A stretch of DNA of 64,000 bases from Bolinopsis microptera (lineage: Eukaryota > Ctenophora > Tentaculata > Lobata > Bolinopsidae), in assembly GCF_026151205.1 (NCBI RefSeq), contig NW_026971775.1, forward strand, positions 60,312 to 124,311, read 5' to 3'. Under the pieces are notes generated by a model, which saw only the letters and a list, made by a program, of their open reading frames with translations, had not been told where the DNA came from and made no database searches. This document shows positions 11,099-41,307 of the stretch, in pieces. Position 1 is the stretch's first letter. Each line of letters begins with the position of its first letter. A program made the translations under genes and the position numbers.

Positions 11099-11163
11099 AT
11101 GGAATCATAGACCTACTAATTATAAGGTGAGATTCTACAGATTTACATAAAATGCTTTATTAA

Positions 11164-13836: not shown

Positions 13837-13841
13837 TTAAA

Positions 13842-15611
<1,770 letters not shown>

Positions 15612-16510: not shown

Positions 16511-16668
16511 ACACAGGGGGACTAAAGTGCTAAGAAACTGCTGCTAACTGCTGCTAACTGCTGCTAACTGCTGCTAACTGCTGCTAACTGCTGCTTATAA
16601 CTGCTGCTAACTGCTGTTAACTGCAGCAGTTAGCAGCAGTTTCTTTGCACTATAATAGTCCCCTGTGT
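16511..16668. mobile_element. Small hairpin element with CTGCTAA repeats
   Basis: Imperfect inverted ends ACACAGGGGGACTAAAGTGC and, reversed, ACACAGGGGACTATTATAGT flank a short tandem array of AACTGCTGCT units (16537-16620). MITE-like; I see no clear target-site duplication, so the superfamily is open. Confidence 0.65.
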
Positions 16669-16820
16669 TATACAGAGATAATTTGATTTTAGTGTGAGGT
16701 TCGATATTTATATGTCCAATCGAATACTTCATGATCATTAACCCATTATGCTTTAAAACGATTATGATCGACTTCTGGTTGATTTCATTACAGTGTAATG
16801 ATATGATTGAAACGTTACAG

Positions 16821-21100: not shown

Positions 21101-24100
21101 GCTGGCTAACGCTGACTAGCGCTGGATAGCGACAACTAGCGCTGGCTAGCGCTGGATAGCGACAACTAGCGCTGGCTAGCGCTGGATAGCGACAACTAGC
21201 GCTGGATAGCGACAACTAGCGCTGGCTAGCGCTGGCCAGCGCTGGCCAGCGCTAGCTGACGAGTAATAGCGCAAAAATTTTGCGCTGGATATCGATGGCC
21301 AGCGCTGGCCAGCGCTGGCTATCGCTTAGCGCTGGCCAGCGCTAGTTGTCGCTATCCAGCGCTAGTTGTCGCTATCCAGCGCTAGTTATCGAACTGTTTT
21401 CTGCGATGGCCAGTTGCGCTGGCCATCGCAAACTATCGCGTGCGACAGTGTCGCATAGCCAGCGACAACTAGCGCTGGATAGCGACAACTAGCGCTGGAT
21501 GGCGACAACTAGCGCTGGATGGCGACAACTAGCGCTGGATAGCGACAATTATCGAACATATATATTTTGCGCTGGCCAGCGTTATCCAGCGCTGGATAGC
21601 GACAACTAGCGCTGGATGGCGACAACTAGCGCTGGATAGCGCTAGTTGTCGCCATCCAGCGCTAGTTGTCGCGTTTTGACTATCGCAAAAGAACCGCAAT
21701 GGGGTGGCATGTGCCTCAATAAAAATATTACAAACATTTATCACAATGCTGGCAAGCATAACCGTTGCCCTTATATTCACAACACTATGTACCCCCTATA
21801 CTATTATATCCCCTTTATTGTTTTCCAGGCATTAAGACTCATCGAAAGTAGTTCAACAGGTATATTTAAGTTCAAAACATTCTAATTCAATGTTAAAGAT
21901 GACAGGAATAAGAAATAGTTATGTGGAGGTTTTTAAGAAATTTGCGCAAAATACGCGCCAGCATGTTATACGAAATTAGGTAAAAAACCCAAAATCGCCA
22001 TATTCAGGTGCCTTAAAAACCATGTTAAAATTGGGTTAGAGATCTGAAACTTTGCAGAGCGTCTAGACCTTGTCCAAATCGACTGTAAAAAAAATTTCAT
22101 GTTGCAGGAGTATCGGGAAGTGGGTTTTCTGGAACCCCTGTTTTACAACAGATTGTCGTGAAGCTATATATGTATATATATATGTATATATGTATAGACG
22201 CTTTTGCAGTAAATTGTAGCCTACATTTAAGTGTCCGTAGATTCAAAAGTATAAAAGATACAGTCATTTCGAACCACAGGTTTTAAAGATAATTGTTTAT
22301 ACTTTAGTTTACATTATATCGAAAAATAATTTATCGTCATCATCATCACTTGATGACGTCATCAATTTAAGTGTTTTTAAAACTTGATTTTTGACAAAAT
22401 AACAACTTTTCAAATCGATTTTAAAGCATTAAGGAGTAATTTTATTCAAAATCTGAGGACATTTTCATCCTAGATAATTGTTCAAGCATTCTGAAAATCT
22501 ACCGGAAAGTTTTCCTACCTTGCTCCTTCATAAAGATATTCGCTATTGAAGTTTGTGCTTTTTTGAAGAATAATTTTATAAAAACACAAAAGTTGTGAAT
22601 TAGTATTCTCTGGTGTTGGGCCATCCCTTGGGTTGTGGAGCTCAATTTTGCTTCCTAAAGGTCTAAATTGTGTTATAGGCTAGTTTTAAAGTTGAAAATC
22701 GAAAAGTTGCACACGTGGGGACACGCCCAAATTCATTTAAAATAGCTAAAATCACTAAAAATTGTTATTTTCACGATTTTTACCAACTTTGGAGTCCCGT
22801 TGTGATCCAAGTTCTTTTTGAAATCTTCTGAAACTTTTCATGCTTATCAAACTATATATTAAATAACACTATGCAAAAATTTATGGTGATTCAATATTTT
22901 ATGCGCACGCAACGTCCGCTCAAAGTTTGCACGTGCGAAAGGTGAGAATTTTGCTCATTCGTGATTTCGAATATATTCTGCTTTCCCACGATATTAAAAT
23001 GGCATTATATATGAATTTAATGCCAACTTGAATGAGTAAAAAGTGCTATATTCAGTCTGTTATTGACAGATATGCCTACCTAAACACAAGGAAACGTTTT
23101 CAAAGGTAAAATTTCGAAATCGTTGAAATTACCTCCTTATTAAGTTTCGACTGTGTAAATTATCCTGACATTATAATCAAAAAGAGATGATATTTGACCA
23201 AAACCCATAATCATGGGTAGAGTGAACCGCTGCCAGTGTCTCTCTTTTCCAAACAAAAGAAAATGATATTAATTTGAGGAACCGTCCGCAAATGCAAATT
23301 GATACCGAGAATGAAATCGGTCGCTCGCTTTTCCCATTCATTCACGGCTTACGTATTGTAATAAAGCTTATTGAATGGGAAAAGCGAGCGACCGATTTCA
23401 TTCTCGGTATCAATTTGCATTTGCGGACGGTTCCTCAAATTAATGTCATTTTCTTTTGTTTGGAAAAGAGAGACACTGGCAGCGGTTCACTCTACCCATG
23501 ATTATGGGTTTTGGTCAAATTATTATATCAATTTATCATTAAATATTTCAACAATATCAATAACTTATGGTTGATTCTTCACACTTAGAAAAATATATTT
23601 AAAAAATTTACTCTGCACTAAAGAATAAATAATTTATATTATGTAAATCAACTATATTATCTCCCCATCTTCTCATAGTCATTTTATCAAAGCGGTAGAA
23701 ATCCAAGTATTTTTTAATACGCGGTGCGCAAGGAATTCCGTTGAAAAAAAAATGAAAAAAAAGAAAGTATGTTTGCAGGTGAGGTACCCACCTACACATG
23801 GTTCACATCCAGTGAAGGAGGAGGATCAGTGCAAATAACAACAGGGTTAAGTGACTTTGGGAGGACTCTAGCGGTCACCACGACCAGCTCTCAATCTTAC
23901 TCTTGTAGATCCTGCTTGGGTGATTCCTGTCAGAGCAGCGCTGTTACTGCTAGTGTTACACCAGGTAAACCGTTACTGCTGGTGTTACACCAGGTAAACC
24001 GTTACTGCTAGTGTTACACCAGGTAAACCGCTACTGCTAGTGTTACACCAGGTAAACCGTTACTGCTAGTGTTACACCAGGTGTTTGTTTGTTTGGGGCT

Positions 24101-27100
24101 GGCTTTTACACCAGTCAATGTTTACTCAAAATATATAATAATTGTAATAATCAATATTAATCCCCGAAGGGCACGCAAATTACATGCCATGAAACTCATA
24201 GTTATTTCGTCTAGATTTTATCAGTTGATTCTGATGACCCTGATCTGCAAACACATTTAAAAGCTTAAACGTTTGTGGACACGTTCATTGAAGTTTGAGG
24301 AAATTGGTAAATTTCTAAAACAGCGTTTTTGACGATAGTGGTTTAATTTTAACAATTATTAATCTAGCGTGTTCATAAGTTCTGAACATTAGCCACGTGA
24401 CCCATACTCCCATATGCACTGCTCAAAAATAAAATGTATTGCTTTTAGGCACTATTATGTAAAAAATGTCACATTTTTGTGACATTGTTTACCATAGCTG
24501 CCCAATTAGCATTTTTTGGTCTAAAATATAGTAGATTAGGTCAATCTAACAATTATGATACAATGTAGGCCTAAAGGGCAGTGATCGAACGGCTTTAAGG
24601 CAACATTTCGTAAACTTTGTCACACTCAGAATACGGGACCTCTTTTCTACTGTGAGGTGTCCTCAAAACCCTTTCAACTCATTATTTGATAGTTCTTCTG
24701 CCAATCATAGCCCTAAAATATGTTGTTTTGGAAAATTAACAAATACATGCACTTGGCTATTGGGAAATGATGTAAATTCTGTCACATTATATGGAATTTG
24801 AAATTCTGGGTGAATTTCCGAAATCATTTATATCTGATTTTGGTTTGGAAGGCGGGAAAACTCTATATGAGGACGATACACGGATACAGTTGATTGAAGT
24901 ATAGGGCAGTTGATGTAAACATCGTCACAAAATGATACGAAATCGTAAATGGACACGTTCATGTTGAAGTTTAAGGATATTGGTAAACCAAAAAAAAAAT
25001 AACGTGTTCAGAAGTTCTGGACATTAGCCACGTGACCCATACTTCCATATACACGGCTCAGAAATAAAATTTATTGTTTTTAGGCACTATAATGTAAAAA
25101 ATGTCACATTTTTGTGACTGTGTTAACCATAGCTGCCCAATTAGCATTTTTTTGGTTTAAAATATAGTAGATTAGGTCATTCTAACAATTGTGATACAAC
25201 ATTTGGCTAAAGGGCAGGGATCGAACGGTTTTAAGGCAATATTTCGTAAACTTTGTCACACTCAGAATACGATACCTCTTTTCTACTGTGAGGTGTCCTC
25301 AAAACCCTTTCAACACATTATTTGATGGTTCTTCTACCAATCATAGCCCTAAAATATGTTGTTTTGAAAAGTTAGCAAATACATGCACTTATTGGGAAAT
25401 GATGTAAATTCTGTCACATTAGGGTAAAGCACATAATTTTGTCATTTTTTGGCAATTTTCCGACTGCCTGATATAAACCATGGGTTTTAACCTCGTCTGA
25501 AATTCCGATTTAGATGAAACCTCCACCATGTTATAGTAGACAGTCTAGGCAAGTTCTATCACAAAAATGATCGAAATTGCTGGGGTTGAAGATGTTCAAA
25601 AAAATTATTTTGAAAAAATGACAAAATTAGGTGACTTTACTTAATTTTGTCGCCCCGAACCTAATTTTGTCACTTGAAGATTGTGCAAAAAGTAACCGTT
25701 TCTCGGTATTTTAGACTACCTGGATGCATCATTCGAGCGCTTTTTTACCAACATTGACCTCAAAAATCCCAAAGATATGATGTTTTCATAGTTTTGTAGC
25801 TTGATGAAAAGATGACACTTTTTGGGTATATAATCTTAGAAAATAGCCCCCAAATGCCCCTGAAACCACTGGTATCTTGAAAAACAATTGGTTCTAGGTC
25901 TAGGTTGAAATTTTCATGTCTGTAGATAGATCACTTGCTTAGTAATTTCATCAATTATTTTTTTAGTCATTTTAGATTGAAAAAATCAGATTATCCACCT
26001 CGGCGAAAATATGCTATTATAAGTGTTATGCTATTATAAGTGCCTTATACATATCCTATGGGCAAAAAAACTTCAGAATAGTTGTATAAGGCCATTTTCA
26101 ACACAATCTGTGATTTACAAGAAATTTGAGAAAGGTCGATTTTTTTGACAAAATTAGGTACTTTTGGCAAAATCGAACCTAATTTTGTCACCCTCTGTAA
26201 CTTAAACAATAATTGCGCTAGAGACTTGAAAATTTGTACGTATACTTCTGCTGTAGAAGATATTTGAAATATGCAATGGCATGAAGCTAGCTCAATTACT
26301 TTTGAAATAGCAATAAATCAAAATTTTGAAAATTCCTTAAGAAAACCTTAAGGATCTTATTTATTTTTCGGGTTAACAGTTTCGCCTTCATTTTTGACAC
26401 AGATGCAAAAGAGCTAAAAACTTAAACTTTGTAGGAGCAGTTTCAGCAAAGTCTAAGCTTTCTTTTTATACACAAACCTTTTCTTTCAAGCTGAAATTCC
26501 GAGCCGAGGCAGTTTTTCAGAGCAAAATGACAAAATTAGGTACCCTGACAAAATTACGTGCCTTACCCTATATGGAATTTAAAATTTTGGGTAAATTGCC
26601 GAAATCATTTATATCTGATTTTGGTTTGGAAGGCGGGAAAACTGTATATAAGGACGATGCACGGATAGAACTGATTCAAGTATAGGGCAGTTGATGTAAA
26701 AATTGTCACAATAATAATAAGGGCAGTTGATATGAAAGAAAATCTATCTAACTAATGCAATGGCTGATGAGACGAAATTTACATTTTTTTTGAACTTATT
26801 TTGAAGAAACATGCCTCGATTAGAATTCAATATTCTTCCAGGAATTATTAGTAGGTTATTATTCAGCAAATCAGAACTCAAGTTTAACAATTCTGAGTTT
26901 AATTTTACTAAGTTACCGAAATGTGACGAAATTCACTTTTCCTGCCCCAACAGTATAATTTCAATGTGATGAAAAATGGGCATGGGTTTCTATATTTCCT
27001 TATCTCTGAATTAATCATTTCAAACTATAATTAGGACTGTTGATGTGAAAGAAAGTGTATCTAAATTTTACAATGACGTATGTGACGAAATTTACATTTC

Positions 27101-30100
27101 TTGACCCTATTTTGAAGAACCATACCCCGATTAGAATTCAATATTCTTCCAGGAATTATTGGTAGGTTATTTTTCAGCAAATCAGAACTCAAGTTTAACA
27201 ATGCTGAGTTTGATATCACTAATTTACCGAAATGTGACGAAATTTACTTTTCCTGCCCCAACAGTATAATTTCAATGTGATGAAAAATGGGCATGGGTTT
27301 CTATATTTCCTGTATAAATCCATTCCAACTATAATAAGGGCAGTTGATATGAAAGAAAATCTATCTAACTAATGCAATGGCTGATGTGACGAAATTTACA
27401 TTTCTTGCCCCTATTTTGAAGAATCATACCTCAATTAGTATATAATGTTACTTTATCACCATCACTATGTCGATAAATTAGTTATTTTGCCAACACGGAG
27501 CAAATAAAGTTATTATTTTTTTTTGTGACGAAATTTACAAATTTTTACCCTGTTCAGGTGTTGAAATTTATCCAATGTTAACATATCACATTATCACTGC
27601 CATATAATAATTTATATGACCGGCGTATGGTTGAAATATTGTTAATTGACCCATAGTACGTAATATAGGGTGTTTAAGTTGGTATACTAATATTTACTCA
27701 ATTTCACACATGTTGAGATATCATACAAATTTATGTGACTAAATTTACCTTTTTCTGCCTTCTGTATTTGTATTTGCCTATAACAATGAAATATGTGAAC
27801 AATTCCAAACACATTCAGCTCACAAAATAATGCTAGACTGTTCGGCATTTCTTGTCAGGATGTCATAAACATCCCTCATATAAATTTCTTAAATGTGTGA
27901 CAGAGTTTACATGGAGCTACCATTTAAGGAAAAAAGTCGCTAAATATGTAGATAATAGTCATATACAGCTATTCTATGAATTGGAAATTCGAAAATTTGG
28001 TCAAACACGGCAACAAGGGGTCCATATAAACTCCGTCACGTTTTTATAGTGTGACAAAGTTTACAACTCACTGCCGGGCGCATTTAATCGATATCTTATC
28101 GTCTGATATAGATATCGTTATGCGACAAAGTTTATCTAGAGGATGAAACGATTATCTTAGGGTAAGAGGGTTTATATAGTTTCATAGTGTGACACATTTT
28201 ACATCATCGTGCCGTTCAGTAGGGTCACTAATATTTACCAATATCCTCAAACTTCAATGAACGTGTCCTTATATAAAATTCTTTACTTGATAATACTGTC
28301 GTAGGTGTTTTATCAGTATAGGTTTGCGCTAGTTGGCAGTGAAATATGGAATGTGCTGTCAGGATGGCACGATAAGTGATTTAGATGGGACACTGATATA
28401 ATAGTGAAAGTTGAGCTGCATATAATAGGTTGCTATTAAGTGTCGGCTGTTCTAACGGTGTGCTAACTATTCTCGGTAGTTGATTTGTTGAGTGCCTGAT
28501 CTTGCTGATTTACGTAGCCCGGGTAAATTATGTAACAGAAAAGTTGGCCATTCTTCATCGTTTCCTGTGCTTTGTAGTTCTATCATTACACGCTTTGCTG
28601 ATTTCTTATAAATGCTTATTGAGAAAATGCTAGATGGGCAAGTTATGCGATTAATGTTGTGCTCGGTAATAGCTAATATAGGACCTTTATACAGAACACT
28701 AGCGCGTAGATCTGGTTGAGAGTACGTTGTTAGCCAGTCGATATTGTCGTCATAAGATGTGCCATACTTTGGTAAATCGGGAGGAAATAAGTCTTTTATT
28801 GACGACGGCAGAAGGCCAGGCATGTAATTTATCTTGTGCGTAAACCGTTACTGCTAGTGTTACACCAGGTAAACCGTTACTGCTAGTGTTACACCAGGTA
28901 AACCGTTACTGCTAGTGTTACACCAGATAAACCGTTACTGCTAGTGTTACACCAGGTAAACCGTTACTGTTAGTGCTACACCAGGTAAACCGTTACTGCT
29001 AGTGTTACACCAGGTAAACCGTTACTGCTAGTGTTACACCAGGTAAACCGTTACTGCTAGTGTTACACCAGGTAAACCGTTACTCAATAGACCACTATTT
29101 AATATTACATAACAAACCGGCTAAAATAATATAATACGGGAAAGTGAAAATGCAATTAACTAGAAAACATTCAAATGTAAAAATGAAATAACGCTGAAAT
29201 GGTAACCATGGTAACGAAATGTCCCTCTCAGCTGCTACTAAGATAAAGTTCACTGCTGTTCCAGCAGACTACTACCTTCACGAGGATGGAGTGACACAGG
29301 GAGCTATATCTCTTACTTGCACTACTAATCTAGGAGAGGTTTGTAGTAAAACATCAAATAAAACAGGCGGGAGACACTGCACGTGATGCCCTTATAAGGA
29401 GACATGATATATCAAACTTTAGTTTTGAGATGACGTAACTTTAGCTTTTTTTGGTTCCTTCTAATTTCTTCGACCTTTTAGTTAAAGAAAATGTATTGTT
29501 ATTTATGATTGAGACATTAACCCAAGATTTGGTTACAGGGTAACTGGATCAAGAATGGTGTTTCTGTCTCATTCCCTATAGACCAGCCCAACCCAGCTAA
29601 TTCTGGAATATACCAGTGTTATGTGAAAAACAGTGACTCCTGGCTCATGAAGTCTACTCAAGTCCTCGTTACTGGTGCGTTATAGGGACACTTAGCAGTT
29701 ACACTTAGTTGAGTGTGATGATAGTGGAAGTGAAATGTAGAAATTTTAGCGCTAGATAACATCAAGCGCTAATAACACAACAGTACATTAAAAAATAAAT
29801 ACATTTCAGAAAAGTTGTCAGTGACAAATAACACAACAGTACATTAAAAGATAAATACATTTCAGAAAAGTTGTCAGTGTCAGTGACAAATAACACAACA
29901 GTACATTAAAAGATAAATACATTTCAGAAAAGTTGTCAGTGTCAGTGACAAATAACACAACAGTACATTAAAAGATAAATACATTTCAGAAAAGTTGTCA
30001 GTGTCAGTGACAAATAACACAACAGTACATTAAAAGATAAATACATTTCAGAAAAGTTGTCAGTGTCAGTGACAAATAACACAACAGTACTTTAAAAGAT

Positions 30101-33100
30101 AAATACATTTCAGAAAAGTTGTCAGTGTCAGCGACGGCCCCAAGTGAGCTGAACACTACTACTAAAGGATCTGTTTCTTGTACAGTGGGTGGCTACCCAG
30201 CTCCTGAGGTAACCATCTTCAAAACAGATCTCAACAAGGACGACACAGTGAGTACATTATAAGCTTGGTGACACGTTTTTGCTAGTGTTGGTGACACGTT
30301 TTTGCTAGTGTTGGGGACACGTTTTTGCTAGTGTTGGGACACGTTTTTACTAGTAGTTAGGGCACGTTTCTTGCTAGTACTTGGGGACAAAAAACGTGTC
30401 CCCAACTACTTTGGGGCACGTTTTTGCTAGTGTTGGGGACACGTTCTTGCTAGTGTTGGGGACACGTTTTTGCTAGTAGTTGGGGCACGCTTCTTGCTAG
30501 TACTTGGGGCACGTTTTTTCTAGTACTTGGGGCACGTTTTTGCTAGTGTTGGGGACACGTTTTTGCTAGTAATTGGCGACAAAAAACGTGTCCCCAACTA
30601 CTTTGGGGCACGTTTTTGCTAGTGTTGGGGACACGTTTTTGCTAGTATTTGGGAGCAAGTTTTTGCTAGTATTTGGGAGCACGTTTATGCTAGTAGTTGG
30701 GGCACGTTTTTGCTATTAGTTGGGGACGGATTTTTGCTAGTATTTGGGATCAAGTTTTTGCTAGTAGTTGGGCACGTTTTTTAGCAGTTGGGGCATGTTT
30801 TTGCTAGTACTTGGGGGCACGTTTTAGTTGGCGACGTTACTTTATGGCTATCTTTGCGACATGATATGGATCAGATTAGAGTTATCATAAAGAGGTTGGA
30901 AAATAGATTTGCCTTCACTCAAAATACCATGATTTCCTGTAATGTAGTTTAATTATATCACTTTACTTTAATTATAAACCTCCCAGAACATGGTAGCGTG
31001 TGCAGTAGACAAGGCAGATAAAACAAATTGTATTGAACGCAGTGGAAACTCTTACTCGGTTGAAATTGATCACAGTGATCTTGAGTCGTCGGGTAAGGGA
31101 GTGTTTTTTATTTGAAAATTCAATTAATTATTATATATATAAATCGAGCGTTATATTTCAACCATGCAAAATTACGATGACATATTTTGATATACTAATT
31201 GATAAATGGTACTGCAATATAAGTTGCTTAATGTTTGGCCGGATGACAACTAACAAGAAATCAAACATATCATAAATAATTATAAATATTTTGCTCATTA
31301 CAATTCTGTAACAACTGAGAACAAAAAAAACAGTATGTTGAGAACTTTCCAATACTTTTATAAATGATAATTAAAAACATGACGTTATAAAGCAATGAAA
31401 TGGGTTATAATATAGTTTTTATGTTCCTCGCAGTAACTCTATTATTACACCACACCAGGGACATACACGTGTAAAGTTCACCACAAGTACAGGCTATCAG
31501 ATGGGTCAGCTGTTGAGAAAGCTGACGAGAAGTCTGCTCCTGTTGCTATAGGTTTGATAAAACGGAGCTCTTATAGATGCTACTTGAACTAACATCATTC
31601 AAGTCTGTTATAGGGTAGCACTTATAAATGCCAATTATTGAAACCTCGAAGAATACAATAGAATGTTGAAACAATTTGGATGGTAAAATATTAGTGTACT
31701 TATATGGCAATACTCAATGCCCAATTATGTACGCATTGAAATACATATTCAGCAAAGTTTCCTCCTTTAGTTTACTACTTCTCCTTCTTTAGTGTTCCCA
31801 GTGGATGTGTACTCCTTAACCACCACTCCTTCTTTAGTGTCCCCAGTGGATGTGTACTCCTTAACCACCACTCCTTCTTTAGTGTCCCCAGTGGATGTGT
31901 ACTCCTTAACCACCACTCCTTCTTTAGTGTCCCCAGTGGATGTGTACTCCTTAACCACCACTCCTTCTTTAGTGTCCCCAGTGGATGTGTACTCCTTAAC
32001 CACCACTCCTTCTTTAGTGTTCCCAGTGGATGTGTACTCCTTAACCACCACTCCTTCTTTAGTGTCCCCAGTGGATGTGTACTCCTTAACCACCACTCCT
32101 TCTTTAGTGTTCCCAGTGGATGTGTACTCCTTAACCACCACTCCTTCTTTAGTGTCCCCAGTGGATGTGTACTCCTTAACCACCACTCCTTCTTTAGTGT
32201 CCCCAGTGGATGTGTACTCCTTAACCACCACTCCTTCTTTAGTCTCCCCAGTAGATGTGTACTCCTTAACCACCACTCCTTCTTTAGTGTCCCCAGTGGA
32301 TGTATACTCCTTAACCACCACTCCTTCTTTAGTGTCCCCAGTGGATGTGTACTCCTTAACCACCACTCCTTCTTTAGTGTCCCCAGTAGATGTGTACTCC
32401 TTAACCACCACTCCTTCTTTAGTGTCCCCAGTGGATGTGTACTCCTTAACCACCACTCCTTCTTTAGTGTCCCCAGTGGATGTGTACTCCTTAACCACCA
32501 CTCCTTCTTTAGTGTCCCCAGTGGATGTGTACTCCTTAACCACCACTCCTTCTTTAGTGTCCCCAGTGGATGTGTACTCCTTAACCACCACTCCTTCTTT
32601 AGTGTCCCCAGTGGATGTGTACTCCTTAACCACCACTCCTTCTTTAGTGTTCCCAGTGGATGTGTACTCCTTAACCACCACTCCTTCTTTAGTGTCCCCA
32701 GTGGATGTGTACTCCTTAACCACCACTCCTTCTTTAGTGTCCCCAGTGGATGTGTACTCCTTAACCACCACTCCTTCTTTAGTGTCCCCAGTGGATGTGT
32801 ACTCCTTAACCACCACTCCTTCTTTAGTGTCCCCAGTGGATGTGTACTCCTTAACCACCACTCCTTCTTTAGTGTCCCCAGTGGATGTGTACTCCTTAAC
32901 CACCACTCCTTCTTTAGTGTCCCCAGTGGATGTGTACTCCTTAACCACCACTCCTTCTTTAGTGTTCCCAGTGGATGTGTACTCCTTAACCACCACTCCT
33001 TCTTTAGTGTTCCCAGTGGATGTGTACTCATTAACCACCACTCCTTCTTTAGTGTTCCCAGTGGATGTGTACTCCTTAACCACCACTCCTTCTTTAGTGT

Positions 33101-36100
33101 TCCCAGTGGATGTGTACTCATTAACCACCACTCCTTCTTTAGTGTCCCCAGTGGATGTGTACTCCTTAACCACCACTCCTTCTTTAGTGTCCCCAGTGGA
33201 TGTGTACTCCTTAACCGCCACTCCTTCTTTAGTGTCCCCAGTGGATGTGTACTCCTTAACCACCACTCCTTCTTTAGTGTCCCCAGTGGATGTGTACTCC
33301 TTAACCACCACTCCTTCTTTAGTGTCCCCAGTGGATGTGTACTCCTTAACCACCACTCCTTCTTTAGTGTTCTCAGTGGATGTGTACTCCTTAACCACCA
33401 CTCCTTCTTTAGTGTCCCCAGTGGATGTGTACTCCTTAACCACCACTCCTTCTTTAGTGTTCCCAGTGGATGTGTACTCCTTAACCACCACTCCTTCTTT
33501 AGTGTCCCCAGTGGATGTGTACTCCTTAAGCACCACTCCTTCTTTAGTGTCCCCAGTGGATGTGTACTCCTTAACCACCACTCCTTCTTTAGTGTCCCCA
33601 GTGGATGTGTACTCCTTAACCACCACTCCTTCTTTAGTGTCCCCAGTGGATGTGTACTCCTTAACCACCACTCCTTCTTTAGTGTCCCCAGTGGATGTGT
33701 ACTCCTTAACCACCACTCCTTCTTTAGTGTCCCCAGTGGATGTGTACTCCTTAACCACCACTCCTTCTTTAGTGTTCCCAGTGGATGTGTACTCCTTAAC
33801 CACCACTCCTTCTTTAGTGTTCCCAGTGGATGTGTACTCATTAACCACCACTCCTTCTTTAGTGTTCCCAGTGGATGTGTACTCCTTAACCACCACTCCT
33901 TCTTTAGTGTTCCCAGTGGATGTGTACTCATTAACCACCACTCCTTCTTTAGTGTCCCCAGTGGATGTGTACTCCTTAACCACCACTCCTTCTTTAGTGT
34001 CCCCAGTGGATGTGTACTCCTTAACCGCCACTCCTTCTTTAGTGTCCCCAGTGGATGTGTACTCCTTAACCACCACTCCTTCTTTAGTGTCCCCAGTGGA
34101 TGTGTACTCCTTAACCACCACTCCTTCTTTAGTGTCCCCAGTGGATGTGTACTCCTTAACCACCACTCCTTCTTTAGTGTTCCCAGTGGATGTGTACTCC
34201 TTAACCACCACTCCTTCTTTAGTGTCCCCAGTGGATGTGTACTCCTTAACCACCACTCCTTCTTTAGTGTCCCCAGTGGATGTGTACTCCTTAACCACCA
34301 CAACTGGAGAGTTACAGTACGGAAGTGAAGCTACCTTTACCTGTAGTGTTAGGGGAGGCAGAGCTCCTTACAAAGTTGAGATGAAGGTTAGTTAATATAT
34401 TTAACTGTCAGTTTTATTACATGATCTGTATCTTGGTTCCTTTTCTCAAAAAACTGCAGAAGGAGAACGCTCTTCAGTAACCAGCACAACAGTCCTGTCA
34501 TGTATATGTTCATATACGAATTTATATATCTATCATATTATGACCTCCTGATATCTTCAGTTTGGTAGTACTTTGGTATACGTGTTCAGCAACAATGACA
34601 ATGAGCAGAGTCAGGGGGATGGAAAGTGTGTGGGAGATTACGTGAAGACTTGCTTCGGTAGGTTTTGAAATCTGGTTTAATATTATGTTTATTATAAAGT
34701 TATAAGCAGCCATGACAACCATGATGGTACGATTCAACGTTTTTAAATAAAATTATAATATATAAATTTGGCTAATTTTGGTAAACAGTTTTAATTGCAG
34801 TTTATTTTAATGATTTCAATGAATATTGTGTCTAGTCCAATGATTTAGATACATTTTATGTAAATTCCTAAATCAAATGGCCAATCGTTTTATTTCAGGT
34901 AAAGTTTCCAGCGTAAACTACAATCACGAGGGAGAACTGAGCTGTACAGGTTACAACGTGGCGGGTAACTTGACTACATTCTCAGATTCAGAGAGCCTCA
35001 CAACCACTGTCTGTAAGTAATACTTTATATTACTTATAAATACTCGCGTCATAACACGTGCACGCGCGTCACAACACGTGCACAACACGTGCACATCACA
35101 ATTCACAATACAAGTGCGCTTATGTAGAAAGTGAGTAATGACGTCATACTGCAAGTGAACGAATTGTCGAAATCTTTACCCGCAATTGAAAACTGAATAG
35201 TTCTTTGGATATAATGATTGTGGTGATAGTTTCAAATGGTGTGTAACTGTGTGAGATCTAGATCTTCTTAATAAGACTGAGATATTTGTAATCAAGTCTA
35301 AGCTTAATCTTATTGTGTGATAGTGGAAACACTCAACATCCACGCCACCATCATGTAACTATGACACCACTCAACCTACAAAATTCGACGAGGATGGGAT
35401 TCGAACCCACGCGGGCATTGCCCAATGGATTAGCAGTCCATCGCCTTAACCACTCGGCCACCTCGTCCTCATTTAGAACCACATTTTCAATTTATTTTAA
35501 GCCGCCATCATGTAACCATGCCCCCATTAAGCCAACAAAATTCGACGAGGATGGGATTCGAACCCACGCGGGCATTGCCCAATGGATTAGCAGTCCATCG
35601 CCTTAACCACTCGGCCACCTCGTCCTCATTTAGAACCACATTTTCAATTTATTTTAAGCCGCCATCATGTAACCATGCCCCCATTAAGCCATCAAAATTC
35701 GACGAGGATGGGATTCGAACCCACGCGGGCATTGCCCAATGGATTAGCAGTCCATAGCCTTAACCACTCGGCCACCTCGTCCTCATTTAGAACCACATTT
35801 TCAATTTATTTTAAGCCGCCATCATGTAACCATGCCCCCATTAAGCCAACAAAATTCGACGAGGATGGGATTCGAACCCACGCGGGCATTGCCCAATGGA
35901 TTAGCAGTCCATCGCCTTAACCACTCGGCCACCTCGTCCTCATTTAGAACCACATTTTCAGCCCGGTCTACCTTTGTGCAAGTATCTGGAGATTTCTTCC
36001 CCCTCAATAACGCTGACTTGATCCTGACTTGTACCCATTATGAGAGGCCACTTTCTTTCGACCACACTGATGTCACTTGGTATCAGGTATGTTGACTTAC

Positions 36101-39100
36101 TCAGAAGAGTTCAGTAGTAGCAATTCTTTTGTCTAACAAGGGTTCGGGGATAATGAAATCTTTATTTCAATTAAATGATTTTTAAGCTCTTTAATTTTTG
36201 ATGGAAAATGTAAATTTTAGTGCAGAATGTTTCTTCCTTTAAATCTTTATTTTATCGTTATAAGGATGGTAAAAGTATCGTGCCTGATAGCACTGTGTTT
36301 TCTGTAAAGAATGGTCTCGGAGTTTATCAAGTGAGTTGCTATTTATAAATGAAATTTATGCAACTTTAATTTAAAAGAGTAAATGATTGTCCAAATTAAC
36401 TGATTGAGGTTGTAAAAAATACGGATTTTAGGGTAAAGTAGTAGCGGTATTCAAAGATGTAACAGCAACAACTGAAGGCTTATACAAATGCATCAGTGAG
36501 GGTGTGGAGTCTGCTGAAGTCAATGTTTATGTTGGTAGGTGGTATTAAGTAATTATATGACGTTTAATAAATTAAAGACTATCTTATTAATCATTTGGTT
36601 GATATAACTTAAGAGGAAAGACAGCGTACTGGATCCAACTAAACAGAGTAAAACAGAATTCAGTCAGAAAACTACATATTTTGTTGAAAGTAAATTGTAG
36701 TAATGTTCGATTTTTCAGCAAATGGTAAGTGGAAAGAGGATGGCAAAATCTCAAGAAACGGCTGCAGTTAAACTAAGCTGCATCATATTTATTAATTCTC
36801 ATATTTACCATGATCAAACTTGATGTTTTATATATCTATCAAGGCAGCGGTCTGTACATCGTACAATGCACCTGGTTGTTCAAGTATACTCTCTATCATT
36901 GTTAATATCTCGTTATCTCTCCCAGGAGAAGGGTTCGCTCCCTCATCCCCCCTGATGACGGTCCCAGACGGCCAGGTTGGGGTCCCAATGGATATGATGT
37001 GTGTTTCAGAGGGCTACCCTCCACCTACTATTGAGTGGATTATTTACACTAATCAGACGGTCGGGAATGTTACTGAAGTTGTGAAGGTACAACAAAGTTG
37101 TACATTTTATGCACATTTTATACAATAATAATAAAAGTCTCTGCAAGAAAAGCTATTTAGGATAATTTTTGCATACCAGTCATACTGCAGTTGAACTGAT
37201 AGTTGAACTGATAGTTGAACTGATAGTTGAACTGATAGTTGAACTGATAGTTGAACTGATAGTTGAACTGATAGTTGAACTGATAGTTGAACTGATAGTT
37301 GAACTGATAGTTGAACTGATAGTTGAACTGATAGTTGAACTGATAGTTGAACTGATAGTTGAACTGATAGTTGAACTGATAGTTGAACTGCTAGTTAACA
37401 GGGCTCTTTTTCTATTCGTACATGGAAAGGTGGATGTCACTAAATCTATTTAAAGAATATTTCTTCTTAGCAATAGCAACTTTAGTAGAGCCACCATTTA
37501 ATTAATGACCACATAATTTATTAAAACTTGCTTATAAAATTAATTATTTAGGAGAAAACCAAAACTACTTCCAAAATAAACTGGATACCAAAGTATGAGG
37601 CATCCATGAAGATCTTTTGTAAAGCTACAAACGTGAACGGAACAACAACATCAAACACTGTCCTGAGGGTTCTAATGGCTGGTTAGTGATTAACTTTATG
37701 TAGCGTGTGCTATATGGTTATTATGGTAACCATGGCAACCATACTATTATGGTTTCTTGGATACTGAAACTAATCTTGAATTTTATAATTTGACTTATTA
37801 TTTTTGATGAAATGCCAAATATTACAGCTGGTTTGAAGTACAAATCGAAAGTTTTAAATAATTACATTTCCAACACTGTTCAGCGGCAGTGAAAGGCAAG
37901 AAAGATTCAGAACAGGCAGCTATCATAGCTGCTAGTGTGATTGGAGGTATAATCTTGCTGATGTGTATCTTCTTCCTGGTGGTGGGCATCTGCAAACATA
38001 GAAGAGCCACTAAACACGGTGAGACTTATGCAGTTATATACGCTAATCTAACTGCGTTTATAATATTTTAGAGTCAATCTGATCGTACACTGTTGAACCC
38101 CAGGTTACTGATTTAAATCAATATTTAAACAAGTTCCTCATAGTAGTAGAACAGCTGTTGAGAGGGCTCTAAAAAAGCAGTGCAATTAGATTTGTAATCG
38201 CATTTTTTGAAACAAAACCAGTGCGATTATGAAAATAATAAGTGGCTGTCAAATAGGTCAAAAGTGGAGTTATATACCTAATGAGTTAATGCGAACAAGG
38301 ATTAACAGTTTTAATTTAAAACTTGGGCTTGATACAAGTTGTTCTACTAGTTACCATATTTACACTACTAGCAACACTACTAGTTACACTACTAGTTACC
38401 ATAGTTACACTCCAGATTTACATTTTGACTATTTCAGATCAATCAGCTGACAGCACTGTTATTGAGTAAGTATATAGTATAGACTAGAATTTGTATAAAT
38501 TTATATATCTGGACAACAGTTTCCACAATCAAATGATTTGTTCGGATCAGGCGAAGAATCATCTTAGATGTAGTAAGATGCAGTAACTGTGGTTACTATG
38601 GTTACTAAACACTAGGAGTATTATAGAGTTATAGCAAAAGTATTGCCGTCATCAAACATCAATCATTTCCTGATAAAAATACAATTTCTGAACTCGAAAA
38701 AGCGTTAGCAGCATTTAAGAACGTCTTTATGAGTTTATGCTATACGACGACGTTACCACTGAGTTAGATATCCAATTGGCAAATTGACTGTAAACATCGA
38801 ATATAAATATTCTGATCCTCGATAACTATAGTTACACTACTGTAAGTGTAACTATAGTTATCATGTTTCATGTTTAATTCATGTTTAATTCCTGTTTAAT
38901 CCCTGTTTAATTCCTATTTAATTCCTGTTTAATTCCTACTGGTTACCATAATAACCTGAAACTCAAGCCTCCCCACTTTCAGAAATGGTCCGTCTAAACT
39001 AGAACGGAACTGTCTCGTGTCGTGTATAGCGTGTTGTCCTTGTTGTTTCAGATCAGAATCTTCAGAAGCGGGGGATCTAGAAGATGACAAGCCGGAAGGA

Positions 39101-41307
39101 AAATGGAAGTTCCCAGCCCTCCCCCGGTTCTACTTCAAGTCTAAGAAAGTAGACGGTACACCAGATGATGGAGGGAAAGAGAAGAAGGGGCCGTTTGGGC
39201 GTTGGTCTATGGTGGATATTACCAGGATGTCGAAAAGGGAGAAAATTGATGATTCTCCAAGCCCCGTCAGAAAGTCAGCTGGAGCTGAAACTAAAAGGTC
39301 TGATTCAAAGGAAAGTGATGTCCCCCCGACTGAGACCGATGACTCTGAAGCTGTTGATATCCCCGGACGATTGAAAGCTCCTGCTGTGATCCGATCTGTG
39401 TCTCACAATCCTGCTCGTGAGAACACTTCAGATGAAGAGAAGAGGAGGAGGAACAGTGCTGAGGATATACCCCTGGCAATGAGAATTAGTAATTTCTTTC
39501 AGCTGAGAAAAGATGGTCCCACTTTTGTTACGTTTAATGAGGATACGAAACAGTATGAGCGCACTTTAACCAGGACCGGGAAATCCGTTTGAAAAACATG
39601 GAACTTATAAAAGATTTAACTGTTTCGTTAAATAAACATTCTCGTGAAGAGAACAAAAACTACAATGAGTTTAGAAACTGAAAAAATTTTTTCACAGTTT
39701 ATTGGAAATAAAATTGTGTGAGTGATACGTACAACATACAATGGAGGAAATTACTAAGCAGCACTTTGACTGCTTAAAGTGACAATCGATAAAACTAATT
39801 TTGTTGCTCAGCAGCGATTTGGAAAAACTTATACATATATATTTTACAATGGAAATTGTTATTCATTTAATCTATTTACTTATTTCTTTGATATTTATTT
39901 TGATTGACATTTGCTGCATCCATTTCATACAGTAAAATAAGAAAGCCTGTGTTTTAAGGGTATCAAGAAATTAACTCCTATATATAAGATCAAAATCATG
40001 AGTACTATAAATGTTAAATCGGTTCCATGCAATTGTGTGAGCAGGGCATAAATTCGTTGTAATACCAGAAATATATAAATATATATATAAATATACTGAT
40101 TAATCATTCAAAAAATGTATATTTTGCAACACGAACTGCACACATTTTTGATTTGGTGAGAATCAGTGATTTTGGTCAGAACAGAATCCCAAACAGCTAA
40201 TTCTTTCAGAAACAAAGACGCTGCGGCAGATAAGGTTTGTAATTTCAACACTCTTAATTGCTTATAATTTAGTAGATGAACTTTTTGCCCCAAGTGTTCC
40301 CCAGGAAATTCAATTTTGTGCCCCAGGTGTGCCCCAAGTGTGCCTAGCTAGATTATCAAATTACCTCTATATGAAATGTTTAAATGCATTGCTTATTTAG
40401 TTCTAATCAGATAATAATAATGTTAAATTCAGTTCTACCGATACTGAACTAATGTTATATATTACACCCTACTCCTTTATAAATATTGTTTATAAACTAT
40501 TCATTTCAAATTACACGCAGGAGAACCCTTATGCGTCTGTATTTACTCTACAGAAGTATAACTTTAAAGGTAATCTGAAACTGAAAAATCCCTTTACTCT
40601 TCCTCGGTCTGAACCAGAACAGGTATAATAATAGAATAATTAACAAATACCTGGTAAATACCCGGTAAATACCTGGTAAATGCCCGGTAAATACCTGATA
40701 AATACCTGGCAAATACCTGGTAAATATCTGGTGAATACCTGGTAATATATGTTACCCGTTAACCGTTAACTTTATGACTTCATTTCTAGATCTAACTATT
40801 ATTAACACTTTAATCAGACTACGAGGAGATCTACTCTGATATTAAATAGTTTGCAAACATATTTAACATATATGCACATATATGCACATATAAGCATATA
40901 TGCACATATTTAAGCACAATTTCTAAACCAGGAAGATAAGCCGGACAAGTCACAGTACGCAGAAATAATTGGCGAGGTTAAGAACAAGGAAAACATTGAT
41001 CAGGACCTTGACTACGACGAAAAAAGAAGTTCTGACGAAATTATCATAAGTAATTACCTACTTATTTTACCAATCTTTAGGGGACAATTTTCACAAAGAC
41101 CAAAACTAAGCTTCAGCTTATTTTATAAAATAATAAATGCGACCATAGTTAATAAATCTTAAATCAACTTAGAATACAAATTAAGCTGAATTGTTAATTT
41201 CCTCAGATCCTACCATTGTGGGTCCAGCTTCAGAGAAGACTATTTCCGTTAGTTCCAGTGGCACCGGGTCCCTGGTCGAAAGTAAACACGACGATGACAA
41301 AGTGTAG
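16821..41307 (+). CDS. Eight-Ig-domain transmembrane receptor, two alternative tails
   Basis: Type I membrane protein with eight immunoglobulin domains, one membrane helix and a cytoplasmic tail. The joined exons give about 1051 codons with tail A or about 963 with tail B, all in frame. Introns between Ig domains are phase 1. Introns inside domains are phase 0, except phase 2 in Ig1 and phase 1 within parts of Ig2, Ig3 and Ig5-Ig7. The first exon found starts in phase 2 and lacks a signal peptide, so the 5' end was not located. Tail A ends at 39592; tail B ends at 41307. Role is inferred: cell adhesion or recognition. The tyrosine motifs of tail B suggest phosphorylation-dependent signalling. 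Introns are loaded with minisatellites, several of which copy the splice junctions. Confidence 0.85.
16940..17520. repeat. Repeats derived from the Ig1 exon end and donor
   Basis: Copies of TCCATACCTAATGGGTTAGT, which spans the end of exon 16821-16919 and its GTTAGT donor, recur many times mixed with ATACTAAGAATACTAGAATT units. Copies of the donor context lie near 16992, 17022, 17072, 17132, 17160, 17200, 17396, 17450 and 17502. A non-matching insert lies at 17225-17335. Confidence 0.8.
17528..18033. repeat. 11-bp minisatellite abutting a splice acceptor
   Basis: About 46 copies of ACACGTCTCTA with rare variants. The last unit runs into the acceptor CTCTAACACAG of exon 18036, so the array itself supplies the intron 3' end. 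Confidence 0.95.
18344..19350 (+). CDS. Ig domain 2 (three exons)
   Basis: Exons 18344-18475, 18797-18897 and 19230-19350. Motifs are TTLPCNIP, VHWYKG and EMAGQYRCEAEV. Acceptors end in CCCGTAG, TTTTTCAG and CTCTACAAG; donors are GTAGGT, GTTTGT and GTAACA. A diverged direct duplication (19089-19216) lies just before the third exon. Confidence 0.85.
18684..18775 (+). repeat. Dispersed 90-bp repeat, second copy
   Basis: Matches 14249-14340 (ATATCCTGTCCAAACCCAGG, then GTTGTAACTTTGTATGAAAA). Non-coding; origin unknown. Confidence 0.8.
19089..19216. repeat. Tandem duplication before Ig2 exon 3
   Basis: Two to three copies of an AACTTAAAATGACCCATTAA unit with its AAGCAATATCTAATA flank, ending about 14 bp before the acceptor at 19229. 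Confidence 0.8.
19364..19454. repeat. 11-bp minisatellite (TGAAATAATAG)
   Basis: About eight copies of TGAAATAATAG starting 14 bp after the donor of exon 19230-19350. Confidence 0.9.
19528..23964 (+). CDS. Ig domain 3 (two exons, 4.1-kb intron)
   Basis: Exons 19528-19635 and 23779-23964, phase-1 join. Motifs are GETVTLCCGTVG, YTWFTSSEGG and SQSYSCRSC. The intron contains the 20026-21696 foldback and the A/B repeats at 21741-23520, so most of its length is inserted DNA. Confidence 0.85.
19602..19705. repeat. Duplicated donor region of Ig3 exon 1
   Basis: About 50 bp spanning GTACTGTCGGGTATCTTAAC and the donor GGTAAGTGTACAGTGG is present twice in tandem, giving two GTAAGT donors (19636 and about 19686). 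Confidence 0.9.
20026..21696. mobile_element. Foldback element with GCGCTAGTTGTCGC arms
   Basis: Ends CGGTTCTTTTGCGATAGTCA and its inverse mark an inverted-repeat element of 1.67 kb. Both arms (about 20026-20620 and 21060-21696) are built from CAGCGCTAGTTGTCGCYATC and CAGCGCTAACCAGCG-type units and can pair along most of their length. The core 20620-21055 is single copy and holds TTAGGG-like repeats near 20925. No transposase. Inserted in the Ig3 intron. Confidence 0.8.
20640..21030 (+). other. Foldback core homologous to 57960-58270
   Basis: The stretch GACGCTAATTCCGAATCAAC (20731) followed by a GGGTTAAAATGCTCTCCTG block, a CACGTGA site, GGGTTAGGGTTAGGG (about 20925) and AAAGTCACGTGA (about 20992) recurs in the same order in the 57960-58270 core. 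Non-coding as far as I can see. Confidence 0.75.
21741..23345 (+). repeat. Repeat families A and B, adjacent copies
   Basis: A copy at 21741-22164 followed by a full B copy at 22193-23345, the same order as at 1926-3640. A tract of ATATATGTATATATATAT links them. Non-coding. Confidence 0.85.
23365..23520 (-). repeat. Inverted fragment of repeat B
   Basis: About 155 bp of the B 3' end in inverse orientation, forming a hairpin with 23190-23345 around a short loop. Confidence 0.85.
23945..24082. repeat. 29-bp minisatellite carrying a splice donor
   Basis: The last 20-odd bases of Ig3 exon 2 plus its donor (unit containing TGCTAGTGTTACACCAGGTA) are repeated four to five times in tandem. The array resumes at 28842 after a large insertion. 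Confidence 0.95.
24277..28268. mobile_element. Foldback element with GTAAA-TT-GTCAC motif arrays
   Basis: Terminal inverted repeats GGACACGTTCATTGAAGTTT at both ends. The left half carries repeated motifs of the type GTAAAYTTYGTCACA (24606, 24772, 24909, 25246, 25407, 26700). The right half carries the inverse, TGTGACGAAATTTAC (26920, 27070, 27232, 27386, 27523, 27738, 27896, 28184). Direct duplications are present in each half (24390-24880 with 24995-25430; 26690-27000 with 27330-27420). No transposase. It sits inside the 29-bp donor minisatellite. Confidence 0.75.
25422..26568. mobile_element. Nested TA-flanked element
   Basis: 1147 bp starting GGGTAAAGCACATAATTTTG and ending in the inverse form with GTGCCTTACCC, flanked by TA on both sides. 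The duplicated host segment at 24778-24800 shows the uninterrupted site (CACATTATATGG), so the insertion and its TA duplication can be read directly. Tc1/mariner-like insertion is inferred; there is no coding capacity. It also contains several GACAAAATTAGGT motifs. Confidence 0.85.
28269..28841. other. Segment between foldback and donor array
   Basis: Part of the insertion that splits the 29-bp array. On the minus strand 28467-28823 is open for 118 codons (starting MPGLLPSSIKDLFPP). I recognise no family and see no splice or promoter signal; it could be a fragment of a transposon-borne gene or chance. Confidence 0.35.
28842..29091. repeat. 29-bp donor minisatellite, second block
   Basis: Eight to nine further copies of the unit described at 23945, each with CACCAGGTAAACC. 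Together the blocks give about a dozen potential splice donors. Confidence 0.95.
29232..29674 (+). CDS. Ig domain 4 (two exons)
   Basis: Exons 29232-29338 and 29539-29674, phase-0 join. Motifs are GAISLTCTTN, GNWIKNG and NPANSGIYQCYVKN. Acceptors are CCCTCTCAG and GGTTACAG; donors are GTTTGT and GTGCGT. Confidence 0.88.
29771..30133. repeat. 62-bp minisatellite carrying a splice acceptor
   Basis: Six copies (one shortened to 56 bp) of a unit containing AAATACATTTCAG and the first bases of the next exon (AAAAGTTGTCAGTGTCAG). The last copy provides the acceptor at 30113. Earlier acceptors would lead to a stop in the following unit, so they appear non-productive unless the repeats are spliced out. 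Confidence 0.92.
30114..31551 (+). CDS. Ig domain 5 (three exons)
   Basis: Exons 30114-30247, 30987-31092 and 31459-31551. Motifs are TKGSVSCTVGG and GTYTCKVHHK. The core Trp is absent (the expected position reads EVTIFKT). The middle exon adds two Cys (VACAVDKADKTNC). Confidence 0.82.
30258..30826. repeat. Irregular 22-24-bp minisatellite
   Basis: About 25 units of GGGGACACGTTTTTGCTAGT with length variation, beginning 10 bp after the donor at 30248. Two units are inverted (near 30388 and 30581: ACAAAAAACGTGTCCCCAAC). Confidence 0.9.
31766..34276 (+). repeat. 45-bp minisatellite of in-frame splice acceptors
   Basis: From 31802 to 34277 there are 56 copies, at exact 45-bp spacing, of a splice acceptor (TTCTTTAGTGTCCCCAG) followed by the start of the Ig6 exon (TGGATGTGTACTCCTTAACC). 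If exonic, each unit reads VDVYSLTTTPSLVSP, a Thr/Ser/Pro-rich stalk. The frame is the one used by the downstream Ig6 exon, and no stop occurs in the array. Variants (TTCCCAG for TCCCCAG, ACTCATT, GCCACT) mark an internal 810-bp (18-unit) duplication. Open frames on the minus strand here are by-products of the unit length. Confidence 0.95.
34277..35012 (+). CDS. Ig domain 6 (three exons)
   Basis: Exons 34277-34386, 34561-34657 and 34899-35012. Motifs are SEATFTCSVRGG and EGELSCTGYNVAGN; a Cys pair in KCVGDYVKTCF lies between them. The start given is the last acceptor of the 45-bp array; earlier in-frame acceptors are equally possible. Confidence 0.82.
35386..35467 (-). tRNA. tRNA-Ser(GCT) copy 1
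   Basis: 82 nt including the discriminator G. Acceptor stem GACGAGG/CCTCGTC, D arm GCC...GGC, anticodon stem ATGGA/TCCAT with loop CTGCTAA (anticodon GCT, reads AGC/AGT), long variable arm typical of tRNA-Ser, and T loop TTCGAAT. A box TGGCCGAGTGG and B box GGTTCGAATCC are intact. No intron, no encoded CCA, and a short T run just downstream on the minus strand as a Pol III terminator. Confidence 0.96.
35543..35624 (-). tRNA. tRNA-Ser(GCT) copy 2
   Basis: Identical to copy 1 over the mature sequence. Antisense to the Ig-receptor intron that contains it. Confidence 0.96.
35700..35781 (-). tRNA. tRNA-Ser(GCT) copy 3, position-26 variant
   Basis: Same as copy 1 except that the G between D stem and anticodon stem (position 26) is T. 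Stems and both promoter boxes are unchanged, so it could be functional, but the usual dimethylated G26 is lost. Confidence 0.93.
35857..35938 (-). tRNA. tRNA-Ser(GCT) copy 4
   Basis: Identical to copy 1. Its upstream flank (minus-strand sense) overlaps the branch/acceptor region of the Ig7 exon, so the Pol III gene and the splice site are only about 23 bp apart. Confidence 0.96.
35962..36534 (+). CDS. Ig domain 7 (three exons)
   Basis: Exons 35962-36086, 36265-36330 and 36432-36534, all phase-0 joins inside the domain. Motifs are NADLILTCTHYE, TDVTWYQ and ATTEGLYKCISEG. Confidence 0.87.
36719..36724 (+). other. Possible 6-nt microexon
   Basis: CAAATG is bracketed by a strong acceptor (GATTTTTCAG) and a strong donor (GTAAGT). 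In phase 1 it would add Ala-Asn between Ig7 and Ig8 without a frame change. Skipping it also keeps the frame. Speculative. Confidence 0.35.
36926..37681 (+). CDS. Ig domain 8 (two exons)
   Basis: Exons 36926-37086 and 37552-37681, phase-0 join. Motifs are VGVPMDMMCVSEGYPPPTIE followed by WII, and SMKIFCKATNVNG. The GYPPPTIEW motif is typical of I-set/C2-set domains. Confidence 0.88.
37190..37394. repeat. 12-bp minisatellite (ATAGTTGAACTG)
   Basis: About 17 nearly perfect copies in the Ig8 intron. Open frames through it on both strands are artefacts of the 12-bp period. Confidence 0.95.
37884..38018 (+). CDS. Membrane-helix exon
   Basis: Encodes AAVKGKKDSEQAAIIAAS, then the hydrophobic helix VIGGIILLMCIFFLVVGI, then CKHRRATKH as a basic stop-transfer. 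Flanked by phase-1 introns. If the donor GTGAGA at 38019 is not used, the frame runs on for 17 codons (ETYAVIYANL inside) to a stop at 38069-38071, giving a very short tail. Confidence 0.88.
38340..38412. repeat. 21-bp minisatellite copies
   Basis: Three to four degenerate units of the ACTACTAGTTACCATAGTTAC family, about 25 bp upstream of the exon at 38438. Confidence 0.8.
38438..38465 (+). CDS. 28-bp juxtamembrane exon
   Basis: Encodes DQSADSTVIE, phase 1 to phase 2. It is the last exon common to both tails; the next acceptors at 38982 and 40209 both accept phase 2. Confidence 0.75.
38860..38945. repeat. Short tandem repeat before the tail A exon
   Basis: Units of GTTTAATTCCT and variants, about seven copies, ending some 40 bp before the acceptor at 38982. 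Just upstream, 38824-38860 is a palindrome around AACTATAGTTAC. Confidence 0.8.
38983..39592 (+). CDS. Tail A terminal exon
   Basis: About 202 residues of cytoplasmic tail. It opens ENGPSKLERNCLVS then CIACCPCCF, a Cys cluster that is a likely palmitoylation site near the membrane. A basic, Ser-rich segment follows with many SxxE/D, RxxS and KRSDSKES-type phosphosite patterns, ending LTRTGKSV. The final KSV is a weak PDZ-ligand-like end. No tyrosine signalling motif. A polyadenylation signal follows at 39631. Confidence 0.85.
39631..39636 (+). promoter_or_regulatory. Polyadenylation signal of tail A
   Basis: AATAAA 38 nt after the stop codon of the tail A exon, supporting it as a true terminal exon. 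Confidence 0.7.
40210..41307 (+). CDS. Tail B: alternative terminal exon set
   Basis: Exons 40210-40234, 40521-40622, 40932-41049 and 41207-41307 (TAG). The first accepts phase 2, exactly as tail A does, so tail B can replace it. Reading: NKDAAADK, ENPYASVFTLQKYNF...LPRSEPEQ, EDKPDKSQYAEIIGEV...DYDEKRSSDEIII, NPTIVGPASEKTISVSSSG... ending KHDDDKV. SQYAEI fits the ITIM pattern (S/I/V/L-x-Y-x-x-I/V/L), and NPYASV is a related tyrosine motif. No homologous family recognised. AATAAA at 41707 is a candidate signal. Confidence 0.75.
40640..40745. repeat. 12-bp minisatellite (AATACCTGGTAA)
   Basis: Eight to nine degenerate units beginning 18 bp after the donor of exon 40521-40622. Confidence 0.9.

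Follow-up and report, generated by a model that had tools for sequence, protein, structure and literature searches.

Minisatellite-like repeats extending over exon-intron boundaries, at both 5' and 3' ends of introns, have been described in amphioxus as 'mirages', in the Adh3 gene and in the globin genes BflGb6 and BflGb9 (PMC3087553). Many of their units carry splice signals; unit sizes range from 10-72 bp in Adh3 to 150-160 bp in BflGb6, and two BflGb6 haplotypes differ in having 6 and 3 units (PMC3087553). Reverse transcription-polymerase chain reaction suggests that mirages leave regular splicing undisturbed, and their authors considered that cryptic sites could be used and proposed that mirages can yield new introns (PMC3087553). 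In human ABCA7, the first two bases of a 25-bp variable number tandem repeat (VNTR) in intron 18 are the exon 18 donor, and alleles extend from 12 units to several kb (PMC5954066). Here, we analysed a gene predicted to encode an immunoglobulin (Ig) receptor in which a 45-bp minisatellite lies across the acceptor of exon 12, and in which three sister arrays occupy other junctions. The gene lies within C16:60312-124311 (the window, 64,000 nucleotides), a stretch of contig C16 in an assembly of 264,652,675 bases and 232 contigs, judged from its gene content to be that of an animal.

We propose, with a probability of roughly 70%, that the 45-bp array is a junction-spanning minisatellite of the mirage type, in which the last copy would be the main acceptor and the array would be spliced out as intron. 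The copies lie across an acceptor in a gene with four such arrays, and the unit spans the exon-intron boundary, as in mirages. The likeness extends to AG/GT signals in boundary-spanning units at donors and acceptors. The copy number differs between the two contigs, which would match the haplotype difference of mirages if these are alleles. The gene departs from the published mirages in the number of units (56 and 35 here, and about 276 in a sister array), in the involvement of four junctions of one gene and in having a unit whose 15 codons are open in the frame of the gene; moreover, mirages were described from cephalochordates.

The array was first characterized unit by unit. Tandem Repeats Finder (TRF) and our own unit split agree on 56 copies in the window, so that the evenly spaced copies of an acceptor plus exon start reported in a preliminary description of this sequence were recovered. 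The gene is also present, on the opposite strand, in a second contig, C17, where the array has 35 units; none of the 91 units has changed in length. Each unit contains a pyrimidine tract, a TTTAG, a second AG nine nucleotides (nt) further on (CCCAG, or CTCAG in one unit) and the first codons of exon 12. What is repeated is thus an exon boundary, the last unit holding the acceptor of exon 12 together with its first codons. As had been described, the unit corresponds to 15 codons, stop-free in the reading frame of the Ig exon, with exon 11 ending in phase 1. Joined together, the exons form one open reading frame (ORF). Both AGs of every unit are in phase with exon 11, and the path from exon 11 to exons 12-13 is open through all of them (112/112 on C16, 70/70 on C17); the claim that every copy is an in-phase acceptor candidate therefore holds, with two candidates per unit. 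Upstream of the array there are ten unique AGs, and none of the five tested gave an open frame through exons 12-13.

Acceptors were then scored with a small weight matrix built from the other 21 acceptors of the gene. The average was 4.2 for TTTAG and 0.2 for CCCAG, while the 21 acceptors themselves, scored leave-one-out, had a median of 5.4 and a range of 0.3 to 11.0. Since TTTAG scores above CCCAG, the working start of exon 12 may be 34268, at the TTTAG of the last unit, rather than 34277, the acceptor position given in the preliminary description; 34277 is indeed in phase, and the phase is the same either way. At the last 3' splice site, TTAAC is the sole branch-like motif (yUnAy) within the last 70 nt, and it is kept in 55 of the 56 units of C16 and in 34 of the 35 units of C17. 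A similar motif, TTTAC, stands ahead of the first unit, which therefore also resembles a complete 3' splice site, as nearly every other unit does. A search for RNA structure at 31552-31870 gave nothing (z-score 0.03).

At the three other junctions, the reading frame indicates which copy is required. The array at the exon 5 donor, reduced to two copies on C16, reaches about 276 copies by TRF over 13.8 kb on C17 (reverse complement 10255-24026), where it holds 265 exact AACGGTAAGT donor sites; a single donor copy keeps the frame on each contig (1/2 and 1/265). The 29-bp array at the exon 6 donor holds 11 intact CCAGGTAA copies on C16 and 19 on C17 (about 21 copies by array count), and again one copy on each contig keeps the frame. 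This array is interrupted on C16 by an insert of about 4.7 kb (24083-28839) and is unbroken on C17. At the exon 9 acceptor, the frame-keeping copy is one of six on C16 and one of four on C17. In all six array-by-contig cases, the sole copy that keeps the frame is the exon-proximal one. In the donor arrays the first-transcribed copy is also the copy nearest the exon, whereas the two differ at exon 9: there, the last acceptor is required even though an intron ending at the first would be short (135 and 149 nt). The exon 9 case therefore separates 'first transcribed' from 'nearest exon'.

The weight of these arrays depends on whether the gene is functional. C17 carries all 22 exons with an unbroken frame and the expected AG/GT ends; exons were mapped as gapless copies only, and their alignments show no gaps. 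Exon differences between C16 and C17 comprise 8 nonsynonymous and 19 synonymous changes, a ratio of nonsynonymous to synonymous proportions (pN/pS) of 0.127 (Fisher P 2e-7), which indicates that the receptor exons are under purifying selection. A decaying gene, with splicing disabled by the junction arrays and exon frames left as remnants, would explain why arrays sit at four junctions, one of them with 265 exact donor copies on C17; this is highly improbable given that 22/22 exons have AG/GT ends and an unbroken frame on both contigs, together with the pN/pS. The constraint suggests a functional gene, in which splicing would bypass many near-identical decoys for the exon-proximal site; the conserved frames of its exons indirectly support continued regular splicing. 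It is because the sister arrays need the exon-proximal copy that we read the 45-bp array as an intron, presumably spliced at its last copy.

According to this scenario, a tandem duplication across the exon 12 acceptor would have seeded the array, which would have grown to 56 and 35 units, probably via unequal exchange or slippage. The spliceosome would mainly pick the copy beside the exon body (the TTTAG at 34268 or the CCCAG at 34277 of the last unit), and the remaining 55 units would leave as intron. Occasional use of an upstream copy would insert 15-residue blocks and not a stop; array length would thus be tolerated because the unit consists of 15 open codons. ABCA7 resembles this arrangement in that the VNTR unit contains a real splice site and splicing takes place at the exon-proximal one; it differs in that a donor and an out-of-frame 25-bp unit are concerned there, and an acceptor and an in-frame unit here. 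Retention of one ABCA7 unit amounts to 2 +/- 1% and is independent of VNTR size, and alternative transcripts together exceed the canonical one in most prefrontal (Brodmann area 10, BA10) samples (PMC5954066).

The substitutions within the array were also considered. The 91 units differ by 10 distinct substitutions, of which 6 are nonsynonymous and 4 synonymous and none creates a stop. They are compatible with neutrality (P 0.32) and fit the exon ratio poorly (P 0.015). The freedom from stops is a weak argument for coding, because only 6 of the 135 possible changes in the unit would create one.

Several points weigh against the splicing of the whole array as intron. The first acceptor would make a short intron of 241 nt, like many introns of the receptor gene, and in human data the upstream of competing 3' splice sites is generally favoured, an effect that is strongest under intron definition and with short introns (PMC9225289). 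The out-of-frame sister arrays may not predict the behaviour of an in-frame array free of such selection, because they are visible only where the exon-proximal copy works. The one-unit ABCA7 transcript shifts the frame and is lowered by nonsense-mediated decay, so the 2% may understate second-site use; a longer ABCA7 array also leads to more skipping of the next exon (PMC5954066). Finally, when array and exon counts were compared directly, the difference did not reach significance (Fisher P 0.13), and little constraint would be expected on a low-complexity stalk in any case.

The short first intron and the human preference for upstream sites would also favour a constitutive first acceptor. The whole array would then lie inside one exon, of 2.6 kb on C16 and 1.6 kb on C17, and encode a fixed stalk, adding 828 residues to the array-free form on C16 and 513 on C17. 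The TTTAC 18 nt before the first TTTAG and the 91/91 units that are in frame and stop-free accord with such an exon. We nevertheless find it quite unlikely: the first acceptor of exon 9 would likewise define a short intron, yet only the last keeps the frame, and the array substitutions show no clear coding constraint.

The preliminary description had favoured another outcome, in which the acceptors compete and exon 12 starts at many different units, so that the locus would make a ladder of receptors whose stalk, variable and possibly O-glycosylated, would hold between 0 and 55 VDVYSLTTTPSLVSP repeats. Besides the 112 open, in-phase AGs, this ladder has in its favour the branch-like motif owned by nearly every unit, a TTTAG score inside the range of the gene's acceptors, and the composition of the repeat peptide, in which S, T or P make up 8 of the 15 residues. 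The peptide is devoid of K and R, and its Asp-N-type 15-mer is DVYSLTTTPSLVSPV. The ladder has against it the strong exon-proximal preference that the sister arrays demand, the low one-unit retention of ABCA7 and the regular splicing that is kept intact in amphioxus mirages. Moreover, openness in phase is not surprising in itself. Among 81 arrays of the two contigs (period of at least 8 and at least 3 copies, with allelic pairs and the 45-bp array counted), 28 have a period that is a multiple of 3; these 28 offer 84 forward frames, of which 40 are open. Being both in phase and open is therefore a chance property of about 16%, or about 1 in 6, and the phase is no evidence of function. The ladder thus appears unlikely to us. 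A stronger form of it, in which stochastic choice among the 112 in-phase acceptors would let one allele produce graded stalk lengths over a range set by allelic array length, is improbable; if true, it would make a length-tunable receptor by splice-site repetition. Altogether, what the preliminary interpretation said of in-phase copies and of length change without frameshift is borne out, while the idea that the array reaches the protein as a length-variable stalk has become less likely in view of the sister arrays, the neutral-looking substitutions and the amphioxus mirages.

Coding VNTR stalks such as those of GPIb-alpha and PSGL-1 consist of in-frame, S/T/P-rich ectodomain repeats that are polymorphic in length. 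The 45-bp unit resembles them in having a length that is a multiple of 3 and in being stop-free in the reading frame of the gene, a likeness that has the same chance of about 16%. However, the GPIb-alpha and PSGL-1 repeats sit within an exon and are established parts of the protein, whereas each unit of the receptor array carries its own candidate acceptor. In tandem alternative 3' splice sites, NAGNAG-like or longer, AGs compete ahead of one exon; the difference here is the 112 in-phase AGs, with a branch-like motif for nearly every unit. The Rlec lectins of Macrobrachium have variable numbers (1 to 9) of 30/33-bp in-frame repeats in exon 2 (PMC7536079). They differ in belonging to a lectin family, and the abstract of that report does not describe a splice site within the repeat (PMC7536079). 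The DDX3Y case was set aside as not relevant, its minisatellite being in the promoter (PMC3039753). In the literature searched on such repeats, no comparably large acceptor array with an in-frame unit turned up. The kind of array is already published; what is new is the scale, the presence of four arrays in one gene and an in-frame 15-codon unit in one of them.

How the array grew can be approached through C17. The two contigs are 97.4 to 99.2% identical beside the array, and in collinear blocks at a greater distance the identity is 95 to 98%. As they are collinear and so similar beside the array, we infer that C16 and C17 are two haplotypes, the alternative being a recent duplication. The preliminary description had anticipated that array length could change without frameshift, and this is what two near-identical gene copies with 56 and 35 units display. 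The order of variants in the last 12 units is identical on both contigs. On C16, the nine-unit motif AFAFBGBBB recurs 18 units apart, and growth by block duplication is therefore indicated. Among 13 other arrays of the region that could be paired by unit and order, the copy number differs in 7 and is equal in 6. The idea that in-phase arrays grow because they are harmless was rejected, since the out-of-phase donor arrays grow too (about 276 and 21 copies on C17).

We also asked whether exon junctions hold more arrays than expected. In the gene span on C16, 4 of 23 arrays with a period of at least 8 contain an exon boundary against 1.8 expected from random placement of one unit (P 0.09); the 23 are not independent, as they include the two halves of the split array and pieces at 20081-21641 that by eye form one element. 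An attraction of arrays to junctions is not claimed, the P value of 0.09 not being significant. A search of the same genome with exons 11-14 gave 25 matches, of which 8 belong to the receptor gene on C16 and C17 and 17 are weaker matches on C21, C10 and C3. The latter are no more than 36% identical, with a best E of 2.1e-8 and several E values near 1, and are presumably Ig domains; none of them supplied a single-copy ancestor of the junction. TRF found no array longer than about 130 bp at those 17 loci (3.2-3.4 kb each).

The receptor gene can be regarded as a natural experiment on splice-site choice, with 2 to 265 near-identical copies of a site at four junctions. Both donors and acceptors are covered, on two haplotype-like contigs, and the frame names the required copy at three junctions. 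The in-frame array offers no frame information, and splice choice there would therefore be free of selection against frameshift. The gene is also relevant to the idea, put forward for mirages, that such repeats can create new introns (PMC3087553). We regard this gene as well suited to testing splice-site choice directly, not as a demonstrated length-variable receptor.

The gene model itself comprises 22 exons with AG/GT ends which, when joined, form a single ORF with its stop at 39592 (Table 1). On the whole receptor protein, Pfam finds Ig_3 (6.5e-32), Ig_2 (1.9e-24), I-set (6.7e-20) and V-set (3.9e-13). A search of solved-structure sequences returned 22 with E <= 0.01 (best 4.1e-07), all named as Ig-domain proteins (sidekick, DSCAM, contactin and others). 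The start of exon 9 was taken as 30114, which is in phase; the proteins used in the Pfam and structure searches were built with 30132 and are six residues shorter. By hydropathy, the putative membrane segment occupies positions 780-798 of the 1018-residue model, and a long polar tail follows it. Judged from these sequence features, the predicted product is an Ig-superfamily membrane receptor with a cytoplasmic tail.

Table 1. Receptor gene features in window coordinates.
Feature	Position	Strand	Remarks
Ig receptor gene	18036..39592	+	22 modelled exons, 5' end outside model; continuous ORF, Pfam Ig domains, 22/22 exons on C17
Sister array 1, exon 5 donor (19635/19636)	19603..19700	+	50-bp unit, 2 copies on C16
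Sister array 2, exon 6 donor (23964/23965), first part	23943..24082	+	29-bp unit
Sister array 2, second part	28840..29084	+	about 4.7 kb from first part
Sister array 3, exon 9 acceptor (exon start 30114)	29771..30135	+	62-bp unit, 6 copies on C16, 4 on C17
Exon 11 (end of preceding Ig domain)	31459..31551	+	ends in phase 1, donor GTTTGA; unchanged on C17
Branch-like TTTAC before first unit	31771..31775	+	18 nt before first TTTAG; motif match only
45-bp minisatellite	31781..34301	+	TRF: 56.0 copies, 98% match, 0% indel
Branch-like TTAAC of last 3' splice site	34246..34250	+	18 nt before TTTAG, 27 nt before CCCAG; motif match only
Exon 12 (start of next Ig domain)	34277..34386	+	acceptor CCCAG; in-phase alternative TTTAG would give start 34268
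Exon 20, hydrophobic membrane segment	37884..38018	+	highest 19-residue mean hydropathy of the model, 3.04

Other features lie in or beside the gene. An 11-bp array of AACACGTCTCT at 17534-18033 (45.5 copies, and 133 on C17) abuts the acceptor AG of the modelled exon 1. At 35344-35960, 3.9 copies of a 157-bp tandem unit form an intronic array that contains four minus-strand tRNA-Ser(GCT) genes, and the last base of this array is the A of the exon 15 acceptor AG. In the intron after the membrane-segment exon, about 3.4 kb on C17 (reverse complement about 33600-37005) are absent from C16 at 38280. Tandem arrays with a TRF score of at least 60 make up 20% of C16 and 34% of C17, the two contigs sampled. 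One of them, a 21-bp array at 49166-53686, has 215 copies, while its counterpart on C17, matched by unit and order, has 7. Elsewhere in the window, a reverse transcriptase domain (RVT_1, 1.3e-32), which we take to be non-long-terminal-repeat-like, lies at 45503-46123, and an intronless ORF of 1082 amino acids at 7850-11098 combines low-density lipoprotein receptor class A repeats with a rhodopsin-like seven-transmembrane domain.

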